Shown in pieces: positions 6,731 to 50,755 of a stretch of 64,000 bases of DNA. How positions within the stretch are numbered: position 1 is the first letter of the stretch; each line of letters opens with the position of its first letter. A model generated the notes under the pieces. It ran no database searches and was not told where the DNA came from. It saw only the letters and a program-made list of their open reading frames with translations. The position numbers and the translations under genes are program-made. This stretch comes from Nitrosospira multiformis (GTDB taxonomy: Bacteria > Pseudomonadota > Gammaproteobacteria > Burkholderiales > Nitrosomonadaceae), in the NCBI RefSeq assembly GCF_900103165.1, contig NZ_FNKY01000001.1, positions 558,001-622,000 of the forward strand, written 5' to 3'.

Positions 6731-7401
6731 GAACGCAGCCCCTTCAATAATCTTATTATGTTATCCCCCCATTTCGAACAGATTCTCTAGTCAGGTCGTT
6801 TTATAAGTTCGCTTGATGATTGCGCAGGATTTTTATTTCCCTGGGATTTTATAAAAGAGGGTGTAGTTATTCATACGCCCGATTGAGCAAAATTTCCATA
6901 GAAAACGAAAGACCAACGAGGCTGCGCGCCAATTTATGAACATCCGGTTAGTACTACGGTCCAATAGGCAACGCTCACAAAACCCGTAAGATGCAATCAT
7001 GGCGTAAACCTATTTCAGGCAAGAACGTTAATATCACAAGTAGCTTGATTCTTTCCTGGTATTTCTTTAATCGGTTCGCTGGCACAGACAGCGACTTAAA
7101 AAGGAAACCCGATAATGCATACAATTTTCGAGTCGGCAGCTTCATATACCCTCAGCTTTTTGACCCAATGCATCAATATGATAGTGATGTGCTTCTGGCG
7201 GGAACGGCGTCTGTCCGCGGCGGCGACGCAACGGAAGGAAAATCCCCCCGCATAAGCCTACCGCTGGACTATTACCCGTTTACTTACCCGCTTACGCACC
7301 GAAATCCGGAAGCGGCAATTCTGCCCTGCGTTTTTGTTGTTGGTTAAGATGTGGAGCATTCCATACCGCAACACATTAGCGCAGGGCGTTTCAGAACATC
7401 G
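6731..7401. other. Intergenic stretch without a convincing gene
   Basis: A 671-base gap between two minus-strand genes. One plus-strand frame (6991-7347, 118 codons) is open, but it has no ribosome site, no recognisable motif and ordinary-looking residue composition, so it is not called. The promoter of the UMF1 gene should lie in 6731-6850, which is AT-rich, but no clear -35/-10 pair stands out. Confidence 0.5.
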
Positions 7402-7773
7402 CTATAGCCGTTTGTCGCGCCGAAGCCTTCGATTAACTTGCCAATGATAAAAACGGCTAAGTAACGGCCGAATGAAGGGCAATCCAATAAACCAGGCCAG
7501 CGGCTTCAATACCGAGACCTTGCTCATGAGGACAATATAGGCATCCAGCTCGGAAAAAACTTTCTGGTTTTCGTCTTTGACGTGCAGCTCCGTTAACGCC
7601 TTGTGAGGATCGATGCCACACTGGCGCAACTCGTTGTCTTTGCCGGTAATGTCGACCCAGACCACATCATCCCCATTTCTGCCCGCGAGCCGTTCATAAC
7701 TCCGCCTGTCCTTGACACAACTTGGGCAGGCGCCATCATAATAAACAGTAACCTTTCCTCGTTCCGTACTCAC
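7402..7773 (-). CDS. DCC-family thiol-disulfide oxidoreductase-like protein (DUF393)
   Basis: A 123-residue protein of the DUF393/YuxK family, a thioredoxin-like fold of unproven function. The defining YYDGACPSCVKDRR motif lies at about residues 12-25 with the CPSC redox pair. Typical following features are present: a conserved aspartate segment (VVWVDITGKD), GIDPHKALTELHVKDE and the C-terminal LKPLAWFIGLPFIRPLLSRFYHW membrane-binding helix. The start is GTG (7771-7773 on the minus strand). It is the last ordinary gene before the decayed integrase remnant, so the left edge of the accessory region lies between 7774 and 7854. Confidence 0.88.
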   Translation of the reverse strand: MSTERGKVTVYYDGACPSCVKDRRSYERLAGRNGDDVVWVDITGKDNELRQCGIDPHKALTELHVKDENQKVFSELDAYIVLMSKVSVLKPLAWFIGLPFIRPLLSRFYHWQVNRRLRRDKRL

Positions 7774-7853
7774 AGATCCCCATAATATATAGTTAATGCT
7801 GCAGAGATATTGCTCCGCAGTTCACTATAGCTATCAGCAGTGGCTAGAAATAA

Positions 7854-8281
7854 GTGGATGTTTCCGTTCTGTTCGCTGAATATCTTGAACGGCATTCTAA
7901 AAGAAACAAGCGGGTATGGAAAGAGGATGAGCCGCGGTACGTCAACCACCTTGCAAACGCTTAGGAAACAAAAAATTGTCCGTCATTGACCGCGCACATG
8001 TTGTTTCGATACGCGGCAGCATAACTAGGGCAGGTCATCCAAGCACTGCAAACCGGGTTAACGCGTTGATATCGGGCATATTTGGATGGGCGATATCTGC
8101 GGGGCTATGGGAGAAAAACTCCGCAACCGGTATTAAGCTTAACAGAGAGCATTCGCGTGACAGGTTCATTCAACGCGATGAGCATAGCCCATTTAGATTA
8201 TGTACATTTGTCATTAATAAGTGTAGCGTGAAAAATGTTGGATATGGTAGGTTGACAGTTAAGCAAGCTCAGTTCGGTTAA
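7854..8281 (+). pseudogene. P4-type tyrosine integrase remnant, frameshifted and truncated
   Basis: Two adjacent frames together give the middle of a P4/SF370-type phage integrase. Frame one (7854 to about 7957) reads AEYLERHSKRNKRVWKEDEP then RYVNHLANA and stops at a TAG. Frame two continues as LGNKKLSVIDRAHVVSIRGS, then the core-binding helices ANRVNALISGIFGWAISAGL and the NSATGIKLNREHSRDRFI word that leads into the catalytic domain. The join needs one single-base deletion or a two-base insertion near 7957. The N-terminal arm-binding domain and the whole catalytic domain (Arg-His-Arg-Tyr) are missing; after about 8195 the frame loses similarity. The gene is dead. Confidence 0.8.
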
Positions 8282-41911: not shown

Positions 41912-42547
41912 TTTTTATTCCTGTTTTTTAGAGGAGCGCTATAAACCCATCTCATTCATATTGTTTTATAAGCATTTTTCATGCCATAAATAAAATATCA
42001 TTAATATTAAAAGAGTTGCACGTGCACCTTTATTCGAGGCGAACCATAGTGTAAAATTTTTCGACAATGAGATGGTCAAAGTTGAAGCCCAATTCGTTTA
42101 GATACACAGTTTCCAAGAAGGAGATTTCCACCTGAGGCAGGAAAAATTACTTGGTCGGCAGTGACCTGCTACCCTCAATTAACTGCGCGGCGCAGTAGGA
42201 TCTCGGTTTGCAAAGGGTGTTGGGTGGAATCCGGCTAGCGTAAAATTGCCAAGCGAGCTATGCGGTCTTGTTATCACCCCAAACCTGACTGTTTCACTCC
42301 CTCTTAGTAAGTCCGCATCACATACTCCGCTTCGTGGATCATTCTGCTAACGTACGATTTTTTTCGTTTCGTGAGCTGACCCCTTTTGATTGTTTTATTA
42401 CGTTCATTTGGCAACCGGTTTGTGCAATCATACTCATCAGCTACGTATGATTTTCAAATGTTGATAGGCAGGGGATAATCTTGACTCTGATAATGGGGGA
42501 CAAGTTCCTACCTTGTCGCCTTGTTGCAATAGCCAAGAGGAATATGC
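41912..42547. other. Intergenic stretch before the RND pump genes
   Basis: A 636-base gap between divergent genes. A perfect 10-base palindrome TGCACGTGCA lies at 42017-42026, about 110 bases upstream of the PEP-CTERM gene, and could be a regulator site. No regulator gene and no repeat copy are seen. Confidence 0.45.
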
Positions 42548-43717
42548 ATGCATCACTCTCAAATCGGTAGAGTGTACCGTACACGGTCGATGATGCCAGG
42601 CGTAATCATCGCATTGACGCTGGTGCTGGCAGGTTGTGACAGCGGGCAGGCGGGGGGTGAGCAGGCGCCACCTTCGCCGGAAGTCAGCGTTGCCCGGGTA
42701 CTCTCCAGACCGGTACAGCAATGGAATGAATACACCGGCCGCGTCAGCGCGATCGATACCGTTGAACTGCGAGCCCGCGTGAGCGGCTATGTGCAGCGCG
42801 TCGCGTACAAGGAAGACCACAAGGAAGGGCAGGAGGTGAAGAAGGGCGACCTGATGTTCCTCATCGATCAGCGCCCCTATCGGATGGCGCTGGCCAATGC
42901 GCAGGCGCAGCTCGATCGTGCGCGCGTGGCGAAACAGCTCGCGGGCATGCTGGACAACAATGCCCGGCTGCTGATGGATGCTGAAGCAATCTCACGCGAA
43001 GAGGCGGACACGCGCCGCACTACGCACACGCAGACCGCCGCGGATATCGATGCTGCCGAGGCGGTGGTAGCCAATGCGAAGCTCCAGCTAGAATTTACCG
43101 AGGTGCGCGCGCCAGTCGCCGGGAAAACAAGCCGTGCCTTGGTAACTGTCGGCAATCTGGCCGTTGCCGACCAGACCATACTGACCACGGTAGTGTCGCA
43201 GGATCCCATGTATGTATATTTCGATGTCGACGAGAACAGCTACCTGCGCTACGGCGAACAGGCGCGCGATGGCGGAGGCGCGCCGGCAGGCACCTCGGTA
43301 CGCGTCGGCCTGGCCAACGAGGAAGGCTATCCCCACGCAGGCACGATCGACTTCTTCGACAACCAGGTCAATTCCGCCGTTGGAACCATACGCGCGCGCG
43401 CCGTGCTCCCCAATGCCGATCGCATTTTTACCCCCGGCTTGTTCGTGCGCGTGCAATTCGTCAGCGGCAGGAAGGAAAATGTCCTGCTGATCGATGACAA
43501 GGCCGTGATGACAGACCAGGACCGCAAGTACGTCTACGTGGTGGACAAGGATGCCAAAGTCCAGCGCAGGGACATCGTGCCCGGCCGCATGGCGGAGGGA
43601 TTGCGCGTGATACAGTCCGGTCTTGCGGCGGACGACAGGATCGTGGTCGCCGGCCAGCAGAAAGTCCACCCCGGCATGCCGGTCAAGCCCAATGAAATCC
43701 CGATGGCCGCGCTGTAG
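42548..43717 (+). CDS. RND efflux periplasmic adaptor lipoprotein (MexE/AcrA type)
   Basis: Membrane-fusion protein that links the inner-membrane RND pump to an outer-membrane channel. The 389-residue protein carries a lipobox in TLVLAGC, so it is lipid-anchored after cleavage. It has the lipoyl half-motifs (VELRARVSGYVQRVAYKEDH and LEFTEVRAPVAGKTSRALVT), an alpha hairpin (about 105-170) and the beta-barrel region with YVYFDVDENSYLRY and GLFVRVQFVSG. AGAGGA lies at 42534-42539. The pump gene follows after 21 bases. These two genes are more GC-rich than their surroundings. Confidence 0.93.
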   Translation: MHHSQIGRVYRTRSMMPGVIIALTLVLAGCDSGQAGGEQAPPSPEVSVARVLSRPVQQWNEYTGRVSAIDTVELRARVSGYVQRVAYKEDHKEGQEVKKGDLMFLIDQRPYRMALANAQAQLDRARVAKQLAGMLDNNARLLMDAEAISREEADTRRTTHTQTAADIDAAEAVVANAKLQLEFTEVRAPVAGKTSRALVTVGNLAVADQTILTTVVSQDPMYVYFDVDENSYLRYGEQARDGGGAPAGTSVRVGLANEEGYPHAGTIDFFDNQVNSAVGTIRARAVLPNADRIFTPGLFVRVQFVSGRKENVLLIDDKAVMTDQDRKYVYVVDKDAKVQRRDIVPGRMAEGLRVIQSGLAADDRIVVAGQQKVHPGMPVKPNEIPMAAL

Positions 43718-43738
43718 GGCGCGGTGAGGTAAACATCA

Positions 43739-46700
43739 GTGGATTTCTCCAGATTCTTTATCGACCGGCCGATCTTCGCGGCTGTGCTGTCGATTGTGAT
43801 TTTTGCCGGCGGCCTGATTGCGATCCCCCTGCTGCCGAGCGGCGAATATCCGGAAGTCATTCCACCGACCGTTCTGGTACGCACCAACTACCCGGGCGCC
43901 AACCCGAAAGTGATCGCCGAATCGGTGTCCGTGCCGCTGGAAGAAGCCATCAACGGCGTTGAAGGCATCATGTACCTGAAGTCTATCGCCAGTTCCGACG
44001 GTACCCTGCAGATAGTGATCACCTTCACGCCCGGCGTGAACCCGGATATCGCCGCAGTGCGCGTACTGAACCGGGTGAGCCAGGCACTGCCGCGCCTGCC
44101 GGAGGCGGTCCGGCAATATGGCGTGACGACCCAAAAGCAATCCCCGACGCCGTTGATGTACATGAACCTGATCTCGACGGACGGGCGCTACGATTCGCTC
44201 TATTTGCGCAACTACCTGGTGCTGCATGTCAAGGATGAGCTATCCCGCCTGCACGGCATCGGCGATGTGCAGCTGTTCGGCTCGGGCGACTACGCGATGC
44301 GTATCTGGCTCGATCCGGATAAAGTCGCCTCGCGCGGACTGACGAGCGGCGACGTGCTCAACGCGCTGCGCGAACAGAATGTGCAGGTATCGGCCGGCCA
44401 GCTCGGCGCCGAGCCTTCGCCGAACAAACCGGATTTCCTGATTTCAATCAATGTGCGCGGCCGGCTGAGCACGGAAGCCGAATTCGGCGACATCATCCTG
44501 AAGAGCGGCCTGAATGGTGAGGTGGTGCGCCTGTCAAACGTGGCGCGCGTGGAACTCGGCTCCGGCAACTATACCGTGCGCGCATATAACAACAGGAACA
44601 CCAACGCCACGGTAGGCGTCTTCCTCTCTCCGGGTGCCAACGCCCTGGCAGTGGCTGATACGGTGTATGCGAAGATGGATGAGCTATCCAGGCGCTTCCC
44701 GCCAGGCATCGTCTACGATCCGACATGGGATCCCACCGTTTTTGTGCGCGATTCCATCCGCGCAGTCCAGAACACGCTGCTGGAAGCCATAGCGCTGGTC
44801 GTGGTGGTCGTGATACTGTTCCTGCAAACCTGGCGTGCGTCGATCATCCCCCTGATCGCGGTACCCGTGTCGATAGTGGGTACCTTTGGCGTGCTGTACG
44901 TACTCGGTTTTTCGATCAATACCTTGACCTTGTTCGGCCTTGTGCTCGCAATCGGTATCGTTGTCGATGATGCCATTGTCGTGGTGGAGAATGTCGAGCG
45001 CAACATCGAGGAAGGGCTGATGCCGCTTGCTGCCGCGCACCAGGCAATGAAAGAAGTATCGGGTCCCATCATCGCCATCGCGCTGGTGCTGTGCGCAGTA
45101 TTTGTGCCGATGGCCTTCCTGACGGGCGTAACCGGCCAGTTCTACAAGCAGTTCGCCGTAACGATCGCGGTTTCCACGGTGATTTCGGCCATCAATTCAT
45201 TGACCCTGTCGCCGGCATTGGCTGCCTTGCTGCTCAAAAGCCACGACACGCCCAAGGATGCGCTGTCGCGCGTGATGGAGCGTTTGCTCGGCTGGGTGTT
45301 CCGTCCCTTCAACCGCTTCTTCCAGCGCAACTCCGAGAGATATCATCGTACCGTCGGGCACGCCCTGACAAAACGCGGGCTCGTGTTCGGCGTCTACCTC
45401 ATGCTGCTCGCCTGCACCGCGCTTCTGTTCGGCAAAGTGCCGGATGGTTTTATCCCGACGCAGGATAAACTTTATCTCTTCACCGGCGCCAAGCTGCCCG
45501 AAGGCGCCTCGCTGGCACGCACCGACGAGGTCGTGCGCAAGATGATCGATATCGCCCTTGGCACCGACGGCGTGGAGAAAGTGGCGGCCTATGCGGGCCT
45601 CAATGCCTTGCAGCTTACCAACACGCCTAATTTCAGCGCCGCCTATGTCATCCTCAAGCCGTTCGACCAGCGCAGCCGCAGCGCCAGCGCCATCGTCGCG
45701 GAGCTCAACGAAAAATTCTCCTCCATCGAGGAAGGCATTACCTTCGCGTTGATGCCGCCGCCGATCGAGGGATTGGGCAACGGTTCCGGTTACTCGCTGT
45801 ACGTGGAGGACCGCGCCGGCCTGGGTTATGGCGCACTGCAGGATGCGACCAAAGCATTCCAGGGCAAGATTGCGCAGACCCCGGGGTTCACCTATCCGGT
45901 CAGCGCTTATCAGGCAAATATTCCCCAGCTTGAAATCAAGGTCGATCGCACCAAGGCCAAAGCGCAGGGCGTGCCGCTGAACGAGCTGTTCGATACGCTG
46001 CAAATCTACCTGGGCTCAGCCTATGTGAATGACTTCAACCTGTTCGGCCGCGTCTATCGCGTTTTTGTCCAGGCCGACGCCAGTAAACGGCAACGCGTTG
46101 AAGACATCGAGAAATTGCGCGTACGCAACGAGAGTGGCGATATGATACCCATGAGTGCGATGACGACGATCACGCCGACCTACGGCCCCGATCCAGTGCT
46201 GCGCTACAACGGTTATCCTGCTGCCGATCTGATCGGCGATTCCGATCCGCGTCAGTTTTCCTCGGGACAGGCCATCACCCGGCTAAAGGAAATGGCCGGG
46301 GAAATGCTGCCGGACGGCATGATGCTCGAATGGACGGACCTGAGCTATCAACAGGTGACGCAAAGCAACGCCAAGCTGATCGTATTTCCGCTTGCCGTCA
46401 TGCTCGCCTTCCTCGTGCTGGCCGCACTGTACGAAAGCTGGACGCTGCCGCTTGCCGTCATCCTGATCGTGCCGGTATGCATGTGCGCCGCCCTGCTCGG
46501 CGTATGGTTGACTGGTGGCGACAACAATATATTCGTGCAAGTAGGGCTCGTCGTACTGATGGGTCTGGCCTGCAAGAATGCGATCCTGATCGTCGAATTC
46601 GCTCGTGAACTGGAATTCCAGGGCAAGGGAATCGTTGAAGCGGCGCTGGAGGCCTGCCGCCTGCGCCTGCGGCCGATCGTCATGACATCCATTGCCTTTG

Positions 46701-46888
46701 TCGCCGGCTCGGTGCCGCTGGTACTTTCTACAGGTGCGGGTGCGGAAGTGCGCTCGGCCACGGGGATTACCGTGTTCGCGGGCATGATCGGTGTAACCCT
46801 GTTCGGGCTGTTCCTCACGCCTGTGTTCTATGTCGCCCTGCGCAAATTATCGGGGAGCGCGCTTGTCCGCCACGACCCGAAAACGTAG
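43739..46888 (+). CDS. RND efflux transporter, HAE1 family (MexF/AcrB type)
   Basis: Proton-driven inner-membrane pump subunit with 1049 residues, the standard length. It starts at GTG (MDFSRFFIDRPIFAAVLSIV). Helix four carries the proton-relay Asp-Asp in GIVVDDAIVVVENVER; the periplasmic porter begins ANPKVIAESVSVPLEEAING. The C-terminal part has GLACKNAILIVEFARELEFQ, as in MexF-like pumps for organic molecules. No outer-membrane channel gene (TolC/OprM type) and no TetR or LysR regulator lie beside it in this window, so it must use a channel encoded elsewhere. Confidence 0.95.
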   Translation: MDFSRFFIDRPIFAAVLSIVIFAGGLIAIPLLPSGEYPEVIPPTVLVRTNYPGANPKVIAESVSVPLEEAINGVEGIMYLKSIASSDGTLQIVITFTPGVNPDIAAVRVLNRVSQALPRLPEAVRQYGVTTQKQSPTPLMYMNLISTDGRYDSLYLRNYLVLHVKDELSRLHGIGDVQLFGSGDYAMRIWLDPDKVASRGLTSGDVLNALREQNVQVSAGQLGAEPSPNKPDFLISINVRGRLSTEAEFGDIILKSGLNGEVVRLSNVARVELGSGNYTVRAYNNRNTNATVGVFLSPGANALAVADTVYAKMDELSRRFPPGIVYDPTWDPTVFVRDSIRAVQNTLLEAIALVVVVVILFLQTWRASIIPLIAVPVSIVGTFGVLYVLGFSINTLTLFGLVLAIGIVVDDAIVVVENVERNIEEGLMPLAAAHQAMKEVSGPIIAIALVLCAVFVPMAFLTGVTGQFYKQFAVTIAVSTVISAINSLTLSPALAALLLKSHDTPKDALSRVMERLLGWVFRPFNRFFQRNSERYHRTVGHALTKRGLVFGVYLMLLACTALLFGKVPDGFIPTQDKLYLFTGAKLPEGASLARTDEVVRKMIDIALGTDGVEKVAAYAGLNALQLTNTPNFSAAYVILKPFDQRSRSASAIVAELNEKFSSIEEGITFALMPPPIEGLGNGSGYSLYVEDRAGLGYGALQDATKAFQGKIAQTPGFTYPVSAYQANIPQLEIKVDRTKAKAQGVPLNELFDTLQIYLGSAYVNDFNLFGRVYRVFVQADASKRQRVEDIEKLRVRNESGDMIPMSAMTTITPTYGPDPVLRYNGYPAADLIGDSDPRQFSSGQAITRLKEMAGEMLPDGMMLEWTDLSYQQVTQSNAKLIVFPLAVMLAFLVLAALYESWTLPLAVILIVPVCMCAALLGVWLTGGDNNIFVQVGLVVLMGLACKNAILIVEFARELEFQGKGIVEAALEACRLRLRPIVMTSIAFVAGSVPLVLSTGAGAEVRSATGITVFAGMIGVTLFGLFLTPVFYVALRKLSGSALVRHDPKT

Positions 46889-47340
46889 GGTGATGCGGGG
46901 AATACCCGAGACTAGCCGGTATTCGCCAAAGATAATGGATTTGTTGTCGCGGTTGCCAAAACCCGATTAGATTCTAAAATCATGGAGGCTGTCTCCTATT
47001 ACCCTTACTGAGACGGTGCGGCGGTTTGCGCATGCTCTAGAGGCCGGAGTGTGAGGACAGCGTGTGCCGGACTTCAAGCAGTAGAAGGCGGGGGGCGGCA
47101 GGTAAGAAAGATTACAGTAATCTGAATTGCTGCCGTTATGCCAGATAACCGCTTTTATGTCGGTATATTTTCCACACTATTTTTAAGGCCATATGGATGT
47201 GCTTGAATAATCAGATAATCAACATCTGGTCCGATACTTGCTTACTAATCAGAAGGTATTATTCTGAGCCCGCATATACTTTAGTACAGTAGATTAAGGA
47301 TGTACGCGTCCTATAATACAAATACTTTAGAAGGTCACAC
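46889..47340. other. Intergenic stretch after the RND pump genes
   Basis: A 452-base gap with no open frame of note and no recognised repeat. It changes from GC-rich to AT-rich at about 47100 and so may be the left border of the second accessory patch. Confidence 0.45.
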
Positions 47341-47661
47341 ATGGAAACGAAAGTGGCGGTCATGGATGCAGAAATAAAAAATGTCGGCTCCAGACTGAGG
47401 GATCATTTAGATGACGTAAGAGCACTCAGGGGAAGTTGGACCATGGTCACGATTACCCTGGTTGCCTTGATATTTGGCATTGTAGGCGTCATGGTAACCG
47501 GTTTTAGCGGCGTCGCCACGACGCAAGCTGCGTTGATGAAAGAACAGGTCGAAATAAAGGCCGATATGAAAGCCAATATGAAACAAATAGACTCCCAATT
47601 AAAGATCCTGAATGCTTCTATGGAAGCGATTACTACAGATCACCAGAACCTTAAACCTTAA
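47341..47661 (+). CDS. Small membrane protein with coiled-coil flanks
   Basis: A 106-residue protein of unknown function. One membrane helix (about 34-56, MVTITLVALIFGIVGVMVTG) lies between two charged helical stretches, METKVAVMDAEIKNVGSRLR at the front and LMKEQVEIKADMKANMKQID at the back. This looks like the small membrane/coiled-coil proteins found in phage and accessory regions. AGAAGG precedes the ATG by several bases. Two terminators follow. Confidence 0.6.
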   Translation: METKVAVMDAEIKNVGSRLRDHLDDVRALRGSWTMVTITLVALIFGIVGVMVTGFSGVATTQAALMKEQVEIKADMKANMKQIDSQLKILNASMEAITTDHQNLKP

Positions 47662-47803
47662 GCCTAAGCGCTGCATCCGCACCGGACCTGATTCGACTGG
47701 TTCGCTACCGCTGTATTTTTAGCACCTTTGTCTCATGGCAACATTTTAACAATCCCCTAATATATCTCGCGGGCGTCACGCCCCTTGCAAAGCAACACCC
47801 CGC

Positions 47804-47832
47804 CCCGGTCCAGGAAACTGCGCCGGGTTTTT
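47804..47832 (+). terminator. Intrinsic terminator
   Basis: CCCGG and CCGGG arms flank a loop of about 14 bases and are followed by TTTTT; it is the weaker of two in a row after the small membrane protein gene. Confidence 0.5.
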
Positions 47833-47860
47833 CATTCCCAATCTGCCACGCAATTACCCT

Positions 47861-47885
47861 AAACCTGCCGAAGCGGGTTTTTATT
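47861..47885 (+). terminator. Intrinsic terminator
   Basis: ACCTGC, loop CGAA, GCGGGT (one G-U pair) is followed by TTTTATT. It lies between the small membrane protein gene and the convergent GrlR-like gene. Confidence 0.7.
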
Positions 47886-47897
47886 GGTTTCTTGACG

Positions 47898-48242
47898 TTA
47901 AGGTAATTCTGCGCGCCGGGTAAATTTCACAGCAATTTTCATGGCGGGATTTTCAACCATATGTCCATTCATAATGAATGCTTGATGCTTGTTGTTCTCC
48001 TCCATATTGACCGTGCCGACTAGAGTAAATTTATCTATATTTCCAAAGATGCTGGTCAGTACCTTCCGATCATTTTCAACCCTTACGGTAGCTTTCAAAA
48101 GGCCATTTTCATAAGCATAACCTCCCACATAAATATAGCTACTATCTCCTCCAAATATCCGTCCGGTTTCTAGTATGACTACCCCGTATCCCATATCCCC
48201 CATATCTGAGCTGAATTCCACTCCATACATCGCTTCTAGCAT
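47898..48242 (-). CDS. GrlR-like regulatory protein
   Basis: A 114-residue beta-barrel protein of the GrlR family pattern: MLEAMYGVEFSSDMGDMGYG, VVILETGRIFGGDSSYIYVG, and TSIFGNIDKFTLVGTVNMEE with the closing strands HQAFIMNGHMVENPAMKIAV. GrlR of enteropathogens binds and inhibits the activator GrlA of a type III secretion system. Here no GrlA or secretion genes are nearby, so this is one of the many orphan GrlR-like proteins of unknown role. Assignment rests on the GVV-L-TGR-GGDS-Y-G pattern. Confidence 0.65.
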   Translation of the reverse strand: MLEAMYGVEFSSDMGDMGYGVVILETGRIFGGDSSYIYVGGYAYENGLLKATVRVENDRKVLTSIFGNIDKFTLVGTVNMEENNKHQAFIMNGHMVENPAMKIAVKFTRRAELP

Positions 48243-48665
48243 TTTATTTCCTCATTATTAAAATTAGAAATCTGTAATCCATGCTTACGTACGTCATATC
48301 TCGATCGGACACGCGAAGGTTTCTATAAATTGCTCTGATTGAAATCTTTTTTGATGGGTTCAGGTTCTTTTTTTACAGCTGATCGGGGGAATAATTCCCG
48401 CCGTTGCGCATCTTACGCCCGCGGTGAATAGCTCAGCAATTAGACCAAGGTACACCTGAGTGCGAGTGTGGGTATTGACGACAGATCGGCCTCACCCCGC
48501 CTCAGGGCGAATACCCACACTGATTCTCTGGTGTACCTCGGGACAGTATTCAATACTGTTGAGTTCTGTACAATTCATTGAGCAGTGACAGCGTGCGATG
48601 CGACAAAACAGAGCATAGAGTAGCCTTCATGCGCTCCGAAAGGGCGCCACAAAAAGGGAGAAGAA
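48243..48665. other. Gap containing a large nested inverted repeat
   Basis: A 423-base gap between divergent genes. Its chief content is the structured element at 48448-48538. GGGAG at 48656-48660 is the ribosome site of the next gene. No other gene is seen. Confidence 0.5.
48448..48538. repeat. Nested inverted repeat, two perfect arm pairs
   Basis: The outer arms AGGTACACC (48448-48456) and GGTGTACCT (48530-48538) and the inner arms GTGTGGGTATT (48466-48476) and AATACCCACAC (48510-48520) are perfect complements. The spacers between outer and inner arms are equal (nine bases each) and the centre is 33 bases. An RNA would fold into a long two-step hairpin; as DNA it resembles a cruciform or a small element with subterminal repeats. 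Confidence 0.7.
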
Positions 48666-49466
48666 ATGGCATCAATACCGAAAAAAGTGATCGAACGACT
48701 CATTGCCGGAATAAAAAGATATCAGCCAATACTGGCCGCTGCAAAAGCTAGGGATGTGGGCGAGGCCGATACGGTAACTATTATTAAGGACATGCTTGCG
48801 GATGTATTTGGATATGATAAATATCTAGAAGTGACATCGGAATTTTCGATACGGGGAACATATTGTGATCTCGGGATAAAGCTCGAAGGGGCGTTGCAAA
48901 TACTTATTGAAGTGAAAGCCATTGGGCTTGATCTCAAAGATCAGCATGTGAAGCAGGCTATCGATTATGCTGCGAATCAAGGGGTAGATTGGGTTTTGCT
49001 TACAAATGGTATGTGCTGGCGCGTTTACCGCTTAGTCTTCGCTAAACCAATTGATCAGGAGCTTGTGGTTGATATTGATTTCTCGGTTATGAATCCTCGA
49101 TCAGACAATGATATCGAGGTACTTTATCTCTGGTGTAAAGAAGGGTGGCAGCGCTCGGTCCTAGGTGAGTATCACACTCAAAAGCAAGCTTTATCTAGAT
49201 TCTTCATTGGAGCAATGCTGCAAACCGATCCTGTGCTTGAAATTATCCGTCGCGAGCTCCGGCGTGTTTCACCAGACGTACGTATTGATATTGATCAGAT
49301 TAAAGGTGTTCTTTCTAACGAGGTGATAAAACGAGAGGTAATGGAGGGAGATAAGGCTGATGATGCCCGCAAGAAAATTTCCCGCGCTGCAGCAAAAGCT
49401 ATTCGTGCGGCTAATCAGCGTGTAACTGTCAAGGAGCCGGAACCCGTGCAAGAATCGATGGAATAA
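48666..49466 (+). CDS. HsdR-N-like PD-(D/E)XK nuclease domain protein
   Basis: A 266-residue stand-alone protein with the N-terminal domain of type I restriction HsdR subunits (HSDR_N-like). The catalytic pattern is D68 in GTYCDLGIKLE and E82-V-K84 in QILIEVKAIG, after a helix with E33 (ARDVGEADTVTIIKDMLADV). The QAIDYAANQGVDWVLLTNGM segment is typical of the family. No helicase part and no methylase or specificity genes follow, so it is not a restriction system in the usual sense. The C-terminal 70 residues are helical and basic (DDARKKISRAAAKAIRAANQ). GGGAG at 48656-48660 supports the start. Confidence 0.8.
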   Translation: MASIPKKVIERLIAGIKRYQPILAAAKARDVGEADTVTIIKDMLADVFGYDKYLEVTSEFSIRGTYCDLGIKLEGALQILIEVKAIGLDLKDQHVKQAIDYAANQGVDWVLLTNGMCWRVYRLVFAKPIDQELVVDIDFSVMNPRSDNDIEVLYLWCKEGWQRSVLGEYHTQKQALSRFFIGAMLQTDPVLEIIRRELRRVSPDVRIDIDQIKGVLSNEVIKREVMEGDKADDARKKISRAAAKAIRAANQRVTVKEPEPVQESME

Positions 49467-49524
49467 ATAATGTTTATGGGAATATTTACCGGCCCACCAA
49501 TCTCCTAATACACAAGAAAAAATT

Positions 49525-49941
49525 ATGGTTGATCTAACCTTATTTTCCTCTGCTTTAAGTGCTGTCAAGACGGCACGAGAAATTGCGCAACTACTTAAAG
49601 AGACCGATCTTTCACTGGAGAAAGCAGAGCAGAAAAGCCGACTCGCTGACCTCCTCTATGCCTTAGCTGAATTGAAAAGTGAGTTAGCCGAAATTCAGCA
49701 CGAGGTAATTGATAGAGATGAGAAAATCAAACAGCTCCAGGAAGCGCTTCAGATAAAAAAGCATATTGTATGGGAGCAGCCGTATTATTGGTTACAGACA
49801 AATGACAATAAAGAAGGGCCGTTTTGCCAACGCTGTTACGATCAGGATGTGAAACTGGTTCGGCTTCAGGGTTATGGAGAGGGGCGATGGGAATGTAAAG
49901 GATGCAAAAGTTTCTATAAGGATAAAACATTTTATGAGTAA
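49525..49941 (+). CDS. Coiled-coil protein with C-terminal zinc ribbon
   Basis: A 138-residue protein of unknown function. An amphipathic front (LFSSALSAVKTAREIAQLLK) and a long coiled coil (about 30-78, LAELKSELAEIQHEVIDRDE) precede a conserved W-rich segment (YYWLQTNDNKEGPFC) and a four-cysteine zinc ribbon, C101-x2-C104 and C124-x2-C127. Similar proteins occur in prophages and near restriction-like genes. It follows the HsdR-N-like gene after 58 bases in the same direction and may be cotranscribed. No strong ribosome site is visible. Confidence 0.65.
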   Translation: MVDLTLFSSALSAVKTAREIAQLLKETDLSLEKAEQKSRLADLLYALAELKSELAEIQHEVIDRDEKIKQLQEALQIKKHIVWEQPYYWLQTNDNKEGPFCQRCYDQDVKLVRLQGYGEGRWECKGCKSFYKDKTFYE

Positions 49942-50679
49942 TTTTCCGATACCGAAAGCGAGAAGCGCCAATGTATGGTGGCATATTTCTCATGAAGTTT
50001 TGCAAGCGCTTTATTCATGAGGTATATAAGCTTAATTCGATTGTCCTCGTCTCTGAAACTCTGGTTACTGTCACCCGGGTTATTCCCACATTTCTTGTAG
50101 CGATAAACCGGACCTAAATTAACCTTTCAATAATTCATAGCGCCACCCAAAGGAGTTTGAACCGAGCTCTGTAGAGATGGCCCGCCCATCGTGGCGACGG
50201 ATCGTTTCTTACTAGGAGCTTGCGTGAAGGACGGCCTCCGACGTGTTCTAATGCAGGCAAAGGAAACCTGCGCATACGGTAAATTACGAGGTATGCATTA
50301 AGGAATGCAGGAATTGCGGGCCTAGCTAGGGTTGGAGAAATAATTTTGAATAGCGGTGGACACATCTCAGAAGCTTTTGGCTCAACAAAGGCCAGCTGAA
50401 TTCGCGAATCCACGAACGGGTGAAGCATTTGATTGCTATTCGCGAGGATCCGGGAAAAGTTTTTATCGTCCAGTAAGTCCTCAGGGACGAAAATTGCATT
50501 TTATCCGTGTCAGATCGCTGACAGTTGGCGACCAAGCGACGAAGCGGCTCGCACCTTTCTTCAGAATGTTAGACTGAACTAAAGATACTTTGAAATAGAT
50601 AAGTTGTGGTTATTGACTGGCGCATTCACCAGAAGAGATATAAGCACCGCCTGCCGAACACTTATAAATCTTTGAAAAT
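49942..50679. other. Gap between the accessory patch and tRNA-Lys
   Basis: A 738-base stretch without a convincing gene. Open frames on both strands near 50130-50580 (up to 97 codons) lack ribosome sites and recognisable motifs. It lies at the 3' side of tRNA-Lys and may contain worn remains of an insertion; no direct repeat of the tRNA end was found in 46.9-50.6 kb. Confidence 0.45.
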
Positions 50680-50755
50680 TGGTAGGCCGTGCCAGATTCG
50701 AACTGGCGACCAACGGATTAAAAGTCCGCTGCTCTACCGGCTGAGCTAACGACCC
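50680..50755 (-). tRNA. tRNA-Lys (anticodon UUU)
   Basis: A complete 76-base cloverleaf with CCA encoded. The acceptor arm GGGTCGT pairs with ACGGCCT with G-U pairs, the D arm is GCTCAGCCGGTAGAGC, the anticodon loop is CTTTTAA with TTT at 34-36, and the T arm is GCCAGTTCGAATCTGGC. Its 3' end faces the accessory patch at 47-50 kb. Confidence 0.97.

Follow-up and report, generated by a model that had tools for sequence, protein, structure and literature searches.

The stretch of DNA analyzed here, hereafter the window, comprises 64,000 nucleotides of a 3.5-Mb Nitrosospira multiformis genome (G000:C1:558001-622000; Nitrosospira in the GTDB sense) and contains, next to a tRNA-Lys gene, a patch of four open reading frames (ORFs), P0001 to P0004. 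P0003 encodes a predicted HsdR-type nuclease and is preceded by a 70-bp promoter-like element. With moderate confidence, we take P0003 to be a phage-borne, single-gene defense nuclease that has been drawn into a defense regulon specific to this genus. The protein has the predicted fold and the intact active site of a nuclease, evolves under purifying selection and is found in prophages and beside tRNA genes; the element has sharp edges, a preferred orientation and an association with defense genes.

P0003 matches the Pfam family HSDR_N_2 (PF13588) above the gathering score (E 5.3e-6), and the same family matches all 81 sequences in an alignment of the window protein with 80 relatives (eight of the 80 genome loci were dropped as incomplete or because the matched stretch contains a stop, duplicates were then removed, and records from other sources were included). 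There are 23 invariant positions in this alignment, among them E33, the PD-(D/E)XK residues D68, E82 and K84 that the original prediction had correctly pointed out, and Q97 and Y101, which we take to be the QxxxY signature of the HSDR_N PD-(D/E)XK nucleases. The structure model (mean predicted local distance difference test score, pLDDT, 87) is closest, among solved folds, to DrdV, the Vibrio HsdR, BpuSI and the EcoR124I HsdR, with Z scores of 9.5-10.7 over residues ~1-177. Foldseek alone returned nothing under 1e-3 for the model, sequence profiles revealed no credible solved relatives, and the helical C-terminal part, folded alone, had no solved match at Z of at least 5 among the 45 chains passed on by Foldseek. 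The only BFVD match under 1e-3 was an HsdR-N protein of an uncultured Caudovirales phage. The profile, the predicted fold and the catalytic residues all place P0003 in the HSDR_N PD-(D/E)XK superfamily. Within this superfamily, it appears to be a stand-alone member, with no function assigned in the libraries that were searched: phrog_17239, which matches P0003 over nearly its full length (E 3.8e-96 over 252 of 259 positions), carries no function, and no orphan nuclease family of this kind was found described among the top matches of the open-access PMC literature. As for type I restriction-modification, we found a nuclease domain protein of 266 amino acids only, with no helicase, methylase or specificity subunit among the ORFs of the patch (ORF list and Pfam scan), as originally noted, and with no recurrent neighbor of note except an integrase. 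The ratio of nonsynonymous to synonymous substitution rates (dN/dS) was 0.03-0.09 in six of nine P0003 pairs, those with unsaturated dS.

Immediately upstream of P0003, there is a 32-nt inverted repeat that consists of two divergent copies of one element, within positions 48439-48579, a feature overlooked in the original prediction. As DNA, this repeat folds better than shuffled sequences (z -4.7), but its arms are the two element copies, and we rejected the hairpin interpretation. BLAST with 96 bp located the element at 36 places in 17 of the 23 same-genus genomes. With a 40-bp sequence model trained on 26 copies (which match by construction), at least 66 places were recovered in 21 of the 23 genomes at a threshold of E 1e-3, including 36 strong places at 3.4e-7 or better. 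All these counts are lower bounds, with 150 candidates scored per genome in the same-genus scan and 33, under stricter filters, in the order-wide scan; at 1e-4, the latter yielded no match outside the genus in 199 other genomes of the order, only the own genome being matched. Thirty strong copies form a sharply bounded 70-bp block, beyond which hardly any conservation is seen in either direction. The block includes the dyad TGTAC-N4-GTACA (114 of 130 arm pairs kept) and, in 20 of the 30 copies by a strict pattern, the longer dyad CTCAG...CTGAG; positions 60-65 read TAAAAT, TACAAT or TATAAT in 18 of the 22 aligned copies that have the second part, and the block ends just past this -10-like hexamer. 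The distance from the start of the element to the chosen start codon ranges from 81 to 377 nt. Downstream ORFs of at least 200 amino acids are present in 18 of the 30 loci and divergent ones in 3, and 26 of the 30 elements are oriented the same way relative to their gene. Elsewhere in the window genome (L161, G000:C1:132000-146000), an internally deleted P0003, with start and end kept and the middle gone (7292-7935), retains its element; a second partial element, 0.4 kb before it, heads an orphan protein of 92 amino acids with no credible PDB match, and a tRNA-Met lies ~1 kb beyond.

The 36 strong places include 20 distinct first genes that were scanned with PADLOC, three places heading P0003 or P0002, three that repeat scanned families, three without an ORF of 60 amino acids in reach, and seven outside the set (L244, L251, L252, L253, L254, L160 and L162). 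PADLOC families matched 14 of the 20 genes at 1e-4 and 12 at 1e-20, compared to two and none, respectively, of 20 genes at random places in the same genus (Fisher test, p 1.2e-4 and 2.3e-5). Removal of three antisense-looking control ORFs gives 14 of 20 versus 2 of 17 (p 4.3e-4), and when L253 and L254 are added, neither of which matched in a later scan, the count is 14 of 22. The matched proteins are two McrB-like AAA proteins (REase_II/PDC-S02; AAA_5 in Pfam), two MzaA, PDC-S60, Mrr/PDC-M36A, Cas1f (1.7e-155), LmuA, a PycTM/2TM effector (1.8e-73), a dCTP deaminase (7.9e-167), PDC-S37/Hhe, bSEFIR, DRT UG5 and GmrSD/HEC-05. The six unmatched ones comprise an integrase, a protein resembling HicA (Pfam 2.2e-5, below the cut-off), a protein of 220 amino acids of unassigned type and, judged by eye, three short or lipoprotein-like ORFs. 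Whole operons seem to follow the element in several cases, again by eye: McrB with McrC, Cas1 with Cas3, HicA with HicB, LmuA with an SMC-like ATPase, and PycTM with a cyclase. Ten hand-picked weaker places gave five more PADLOC matches, including SIR2 (1e-159) and PDC-S21, a set that was partly chosen by eye and proves little.

Two further kinds of element-headed loci deserve mention. At L162:6556-11491 (G000:C1:2153555 on), the element is followed by a 0.69-kb gap resembling gene debris and then by a Gabija-like pair, that is, an OLD nuclease, whose best solved relative is GajA (2e-8), together with a UvrD/GajB-like helicase. At L228:1504-4074, L227:428-2998 and L233:1672-4089, the element heads ankyrin-repeat proteins with sigma-70 regions, of which those of L228 and L233 are MzaA in PADLOC; such proteins could possibly be a regulator as well as a target.

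If the hexamer serves as the -10 box, the center of the first dyad falls, by arithmetic, at -42.5, around which class II activators bind. The dyad and its placement led us to consider an activator of the LuxR type, and an N-acyl homoserine lactone-binding LuxR scored over the cut-off in 22 of the 23 genomes. A structured RNA leader was also considered but gained no clear support: 95% of cells pair, and the covariation is not clearly above that of shuffled alignments (52 of 500 as high). No Rfam family was detected at the element, and no shared defense promoter was found described among the top matches of the open-access PMC literature. On our preferred reading, the element would be an activator-dependent promoter.

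The two strongest rivals to this reading are that the element marks acquisition and that P0003 works for the phage. According to the first, the element would be a mobile or recombination sequence, such as the end of a miniature inverted-repeat transposable element (MITE) or of a cassette, and would mark a route of acquisition rather than common regulation. The sharp edges, the inverted repeat made by the two divergent copies in the window, the retention of the element by the deleted P0003 and the presence of a second copy within 15 kb for 17 of the 66 copies (for example, the cluster in G015:C2 at 104, 109 and 117 kb) are all compatible with such an origin. Against it, the block stops just past the -10-like hexamer, the orientation is nearly fixed, the distance to the start codon varies, and 49 of the 66 copies stand alone within a radius of 15 kb; overall, we consider this alternative rather unlikely.

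The second rival requires a closer look at where P0003 occurs. A scan of named genomes confirmed 92 relatives, of which 80 were kept, at 43-85% identity and in many phyla. The tree of 85 P0003 proteins is largely ordered by phylum, with 12 changes where the least possible number is 8. The copies from the genus fall in two places of this tree, one with the window and G021 (and, less supported, Nv6), the other with Nl12 and G007, and therefore P0003 seems to have entered the genus twice; over the compared stretches, L089 and L088 have the same sequence as the loci of Nitrosospira multiformis Nl12 and Nitrosovibrio Nv6. Ten viral contigs, including three near-identical ones, and seven plasmid records, of which six are from Leptospira weilii, also contain relatives. 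On the two L. weilii plasmids that were viewed, the P0003 relative (L143:5953-6789 and L331:5394-6230) follows a DUF433/PIN-like pair.

A position typical of phage morons, in the lysogeny region beside the repressor or the integrase, was found in a minority of loci. In Thermus phage Riverbug, a LexA-like regulator is encoded directly upstream on the same strand, and a periplasmic protein and then an integrase follow the nuclease; in the prophage contigs L135, L136 and L137, a repressor is encoded directly upstream on the same strand, and an integrase one or two genes downstream. In L061, L066 and L080, all of them genome loci, a profile iterated from these four repressors matched on the strand of P0003 at most 100 nt upstream of it, and an integrase profile matched within 2 kb in 8 of the 80 loci, once weakly (L071). 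tRNA genes are located within 1.25 kb of P0003 in seven of the 80 loci, with the 3' end towards P0003 in all seven (p 0.0023), and over all flanks, 13 of 17 tRNAs have this orientation. Attachment repeats at tRNA 3' ends were not found as exact matches of at least 13 nt in 15 loci, where two repeats of 11 and 12 nt were present. A terminator follows P0003 in 5 of 76 loci, compared to 24 of 1391 control windows, and the same scan found none within 250 nt in the window.

The location between repressor and integrase in several prophages, the strong purifying selection and the fairly good agreement of the tree with the phyla would fit a protein that serves the phage or mobile element itself, in integration, excision or DNA processing during lysogeny, rather than defense. 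On the other side, our own profile places no integrase within 2 kb of P0003 in 72 of the 80 genome loci (short contigs are frequent), and even so the majority of copies are intact; moreover, P0003 is headed by the defense-associated element in two same-genus genomes. We regard a role in the life of the phage as improbable, to about the same degree as the acquisition-mark explanation of the element.

If P0003 is a phage-borne defense nuclease under a shared promoter, its history and action might be envisaged as follows. The gene would be carried by prophages and integrase elements, and some copies would have remained at tRNA 3' ends. Residues 1-170 of the protein would represent the catalytic domain of type I HsdR and type IIG enzymes, without motor, methylase or target recognition, and target sensing or restraint of the nuclease is presumably the task of the conserved helical tail; the enzyme would cut phage or invading DNA. 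In several temperate phages, where P0003 is located behind the repressor, the lysogen would express it, and other phages would be excluded. In the lineage of the window, P0003 would have come under the genus-specific element found in front of many unrelated anti-phage operons as well, and a regulator acting on the element would raise these defenses together. We infer that one regulator acts in this way and couples P0003, together with P0004 behind it, to the other defenses.

On a larger scale, and more tentatively, it seems quite possible that Nitrosospira has a defense regulon in which one 70-bp promoter element and one regulator govern scattered systems, namely, CRISPR I-F, McrBC-like, Pycsar-like, Lamassu-like, Gabija-like, MzaA, a defense reverse transcriptase, SEFIR and others, such that newly acquired immune genes would be wired to one switch. 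P0003 would be a new single-gene member of this regulon, and the element could find further ones. Defense genes cluster in islands, and the joint switching of different systems, as well as its agent, is largely an open matter; a short element marking many unrelated defense operons in one genus makes such switching directly testable. If the proposal is correct, new defense genes could be found by promoter instead of by neighborhood, and the way in which a gene like P0003 comes under host regulation after its arrival would be explained.

Several observations weigh against these proposals. P0003 itself matches no PADLOC family (best PDC-M18A, E 0.014). When all unscanned strong places are counted as misses, the enrichment shrinks to 14 of 33 versus 2 of 20 (p 0.012) and, at 1e-20, to 12 of 33 (p 0.0013), and the controls were random genes rather than random island genes. 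By eye, weaker partial copies of the element precede PEP-CTERM, MarC and lipoprotein genes, and those scanned had no PADLOC match; therefore, the set of genes, if indeed a regulon, extends beyond defense. A consensus scan, with at most 3 mismatches of 12, detected no canonical sigma-70 promoter and no canonical -35 box at the element. Control by LuxR quorum sensing gained no support, as no element box was found in the luxR neighborhoods of the 16 genomes read (best score 11.8 of 39.4; luxI was not looked for). Among the five same-genus carriers, the element directly precedes P0003 in only two, both of one lineage, and also in the internally deleted copy; as it was not detected outside the genus, it says nothing of P0003 elsewhere. 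Finally, most P0003 loci have no repressor, integrase or tRNA nearby, and only one of 50,697 phage records contains a relative.

A third explanation, that the patch is an island remnant whose four genes are decaying cargo without a present function, fits the low G+C content, the tRNA hotspot, the deleted P0003 copy and the stops inside the matched stretch in 5 of the 80 relatives, some of which are perhaps alignment run-on past the natural end. Given that the window P0003 and its G021 counterpart differ by a dN of 0.036 at a dS of 1.1, we hold this to be quite unlikely.

The original prediction also suggested that P0003 and P0004 form a nuclease and zinc-ribbon pair and named in advance a neighborhood search as the test that could refute it. 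In that search, the two genes are adjacent in their own locus only, and the pair falls. A tblastn search of the 80 other P0003 loci, with flanks of up to 6 kb, revealed no relatives of P0004, P0002 or P0001. Across 41 related genomes, the own one included, P0003 is present in five, P0002 in three and P0004 in one, the own, so that P0004 is absent from all four other same-genus carriers of P0003. The phrog_1244 family, to which P0004 belongs, was detected in 5 of 43 P0003-bearing genomes (own included) and is adjacent to P0003 in none of the 42 others: the strongest other match is on a 15.5-kb contig distinct from the 33.7-kb P0003 contig of that genome, and, of the remaining three, one is on a different contig and two are 177 kb and ~16 kb off, if on the P0003 contig at all. 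No P0004 relatives were found in phage records and viral contigs at the limits used. Clustering of neighbors across 81 P0003 loci, with a crude choice of ORFs that recovered P0003 itself in 76, identified integrase as the only other family of note (7 loci), with the next families in at most 5. Thus, with neither P0004 nor P0002 recurring at other P0003 loci, both pairings were rejected, P0003 appears to stand alone without a conserved partner gene, and a two-gene system is extremely improbable, with at most a function confined to this strain being conceivable. Because P0003 and P0004 are only 58 bp apart on the same strand, they are possibly co-transcribed in this genome, P0004 not being a conserved partner. 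The broader suggestion of an uncharacterised defense unit gains support, from evidence not available to the original prediction: the lysogeny position in prophages and the element common to known defense genes favor it, for a single nuclease gene and not for a multi-gene set.

The features of the locus are listed in the table below. The four ORFs and the tRNA-Lys are placed and identified as first predicted, and P0004 does end in the four-cysteine CxxC...CxxC ribbon (phrog_1244 match at 1e-15; weak PADLOC matches to LmuB, E 5.8e-4, are mostly over the coiled coil). The other labels are softer: the resemblance of P0002 to NCBIfam GrlR is weak and under the cut-off (E 0.025), that to phrog_2483 being firmer (7.5e-9), and the membrane nature of P0001 rests on a hydrophobic stretch seen by eye.

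Features of the P0003 locus and its surroundings (window coordinates)
Feature	Position	Strand	Basis
P0001, 106 amino acids, one hydrophobic stretch (judged by eye), bystander	47341..47661	+	ORF
P0002, 114 amino acids, weakly GrlR-like (phrog_2483)	47898..48242	-	ORF, profile matches
P0003, 266 amino acids, predicted HsdR-type PD-(D/E)XK nuclease domain (residues ~1-170) and conserved helical C-terminal part	48666..49466	+	ORF, Pfam, model
P0004, 138 amino acids, coiled coil and CxxC/CxxC ribbon (phrog_1244), 58 bp behind P0003	49525..49941	+	ORF, profile match
tRNA-Lys(ttt), 3' end towards the patch, edge of a region variable within the genus	50680..50755	-	tRNA gene
70-bp upstream element heading P0003; core 48510-48549; dyad 48532-48545; -10-like TACAAT 48569-48574	48510..48579	+	
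Partial (core only) copy of the 70-bp element, divergent, heading the GrlR-like gene P0002	48439..48476	-	
Stretch missing at this tRNA-Lys in G021 and G014 (efflux operon and patch)	42104..50679	not assigned	genome comparison

The G+C content drops from ~0.60 to ~0.45 over 47.0-50.7 kb of the window. Contiguous similarity from the tRNA-Lys side ends at most 15 bp from the 3' end of the tRNA in all 14 relatives fetched; on the far side, window position 42,082 (in G021) or 42,103 (in G014) is found ~150 bp from the tRNA, and therefore ~8.6 kb constitute an insertion relative to both genomes. The patch thus appears to be part of an 8.6-kb insertion, along with an efflux operon, at a tRNA-Lys hotspot, and the insertion begins near 42.1 kb rather than at 47.3 kb, which the original prediction had overlooked. 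The resistance-nodulation-division (RND) efflux operon inside it (42548-46888; ~60% G+C) is missing at this site in G021 and G014. A different P0003 copy is located at the same tRNA-Lys in G007. The closest copy (95% identical), that of G021, lies elsewhere, 0.9 kb from an integrase, in an island (L159:5334-11292) that, by eye, also encodes a RelBE-like pair and a nucleoside-phosphorylase-like protein, the integrase being intact. An integrase fragment was detected in the window at 7931-8281 (own integrase profile, E 7.9e-15).

Compared to known systems, P0003 resembles the nuclease domain of type I HsdR subunits (EcoR124I, 2w00; Vibrio vulnificus, 3h1t) in predicted fold over residues ~1-177 (Z 9.5 and 10.7) and in the D...ExK and QxxxY residues, and differs from type I restriction enzymes by the lack of helicase, HsdM and HsdS and by a helical C-terminal part of its own. 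The N-terminal nuclease domains of the type IIG enzymes DrdV and BpuSI are also similar (Z 10.7 and 10.0), without their methylase or target-recognition domain having a counterpart in P0003. According to PMC12894663, the place behind a CI-like repressor is the site of the phage-exclusion genes RexAB of Lambda and RexABpp of Pseudomonas putida, the same place that P0003 occupies in several prophages; the Rex proteins are unrelated to P0003, for which phage exclusion would be a putative function. With respect to regulation, PMC12409362 describes four integron defense loci of V. parahaemolyticus that are induced in a high-cell-density mimic, and WYL regulators and the cyclic-oligonucleotide-based anti-phage signaling system (CBASS) appear in it as reference titles. 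Several defense loci are under common control there, as proposed here; in the present case, no box was found near luxR in 16 genomes, and one conserved cis element heads many unrelated types of defense systems within a single genus.

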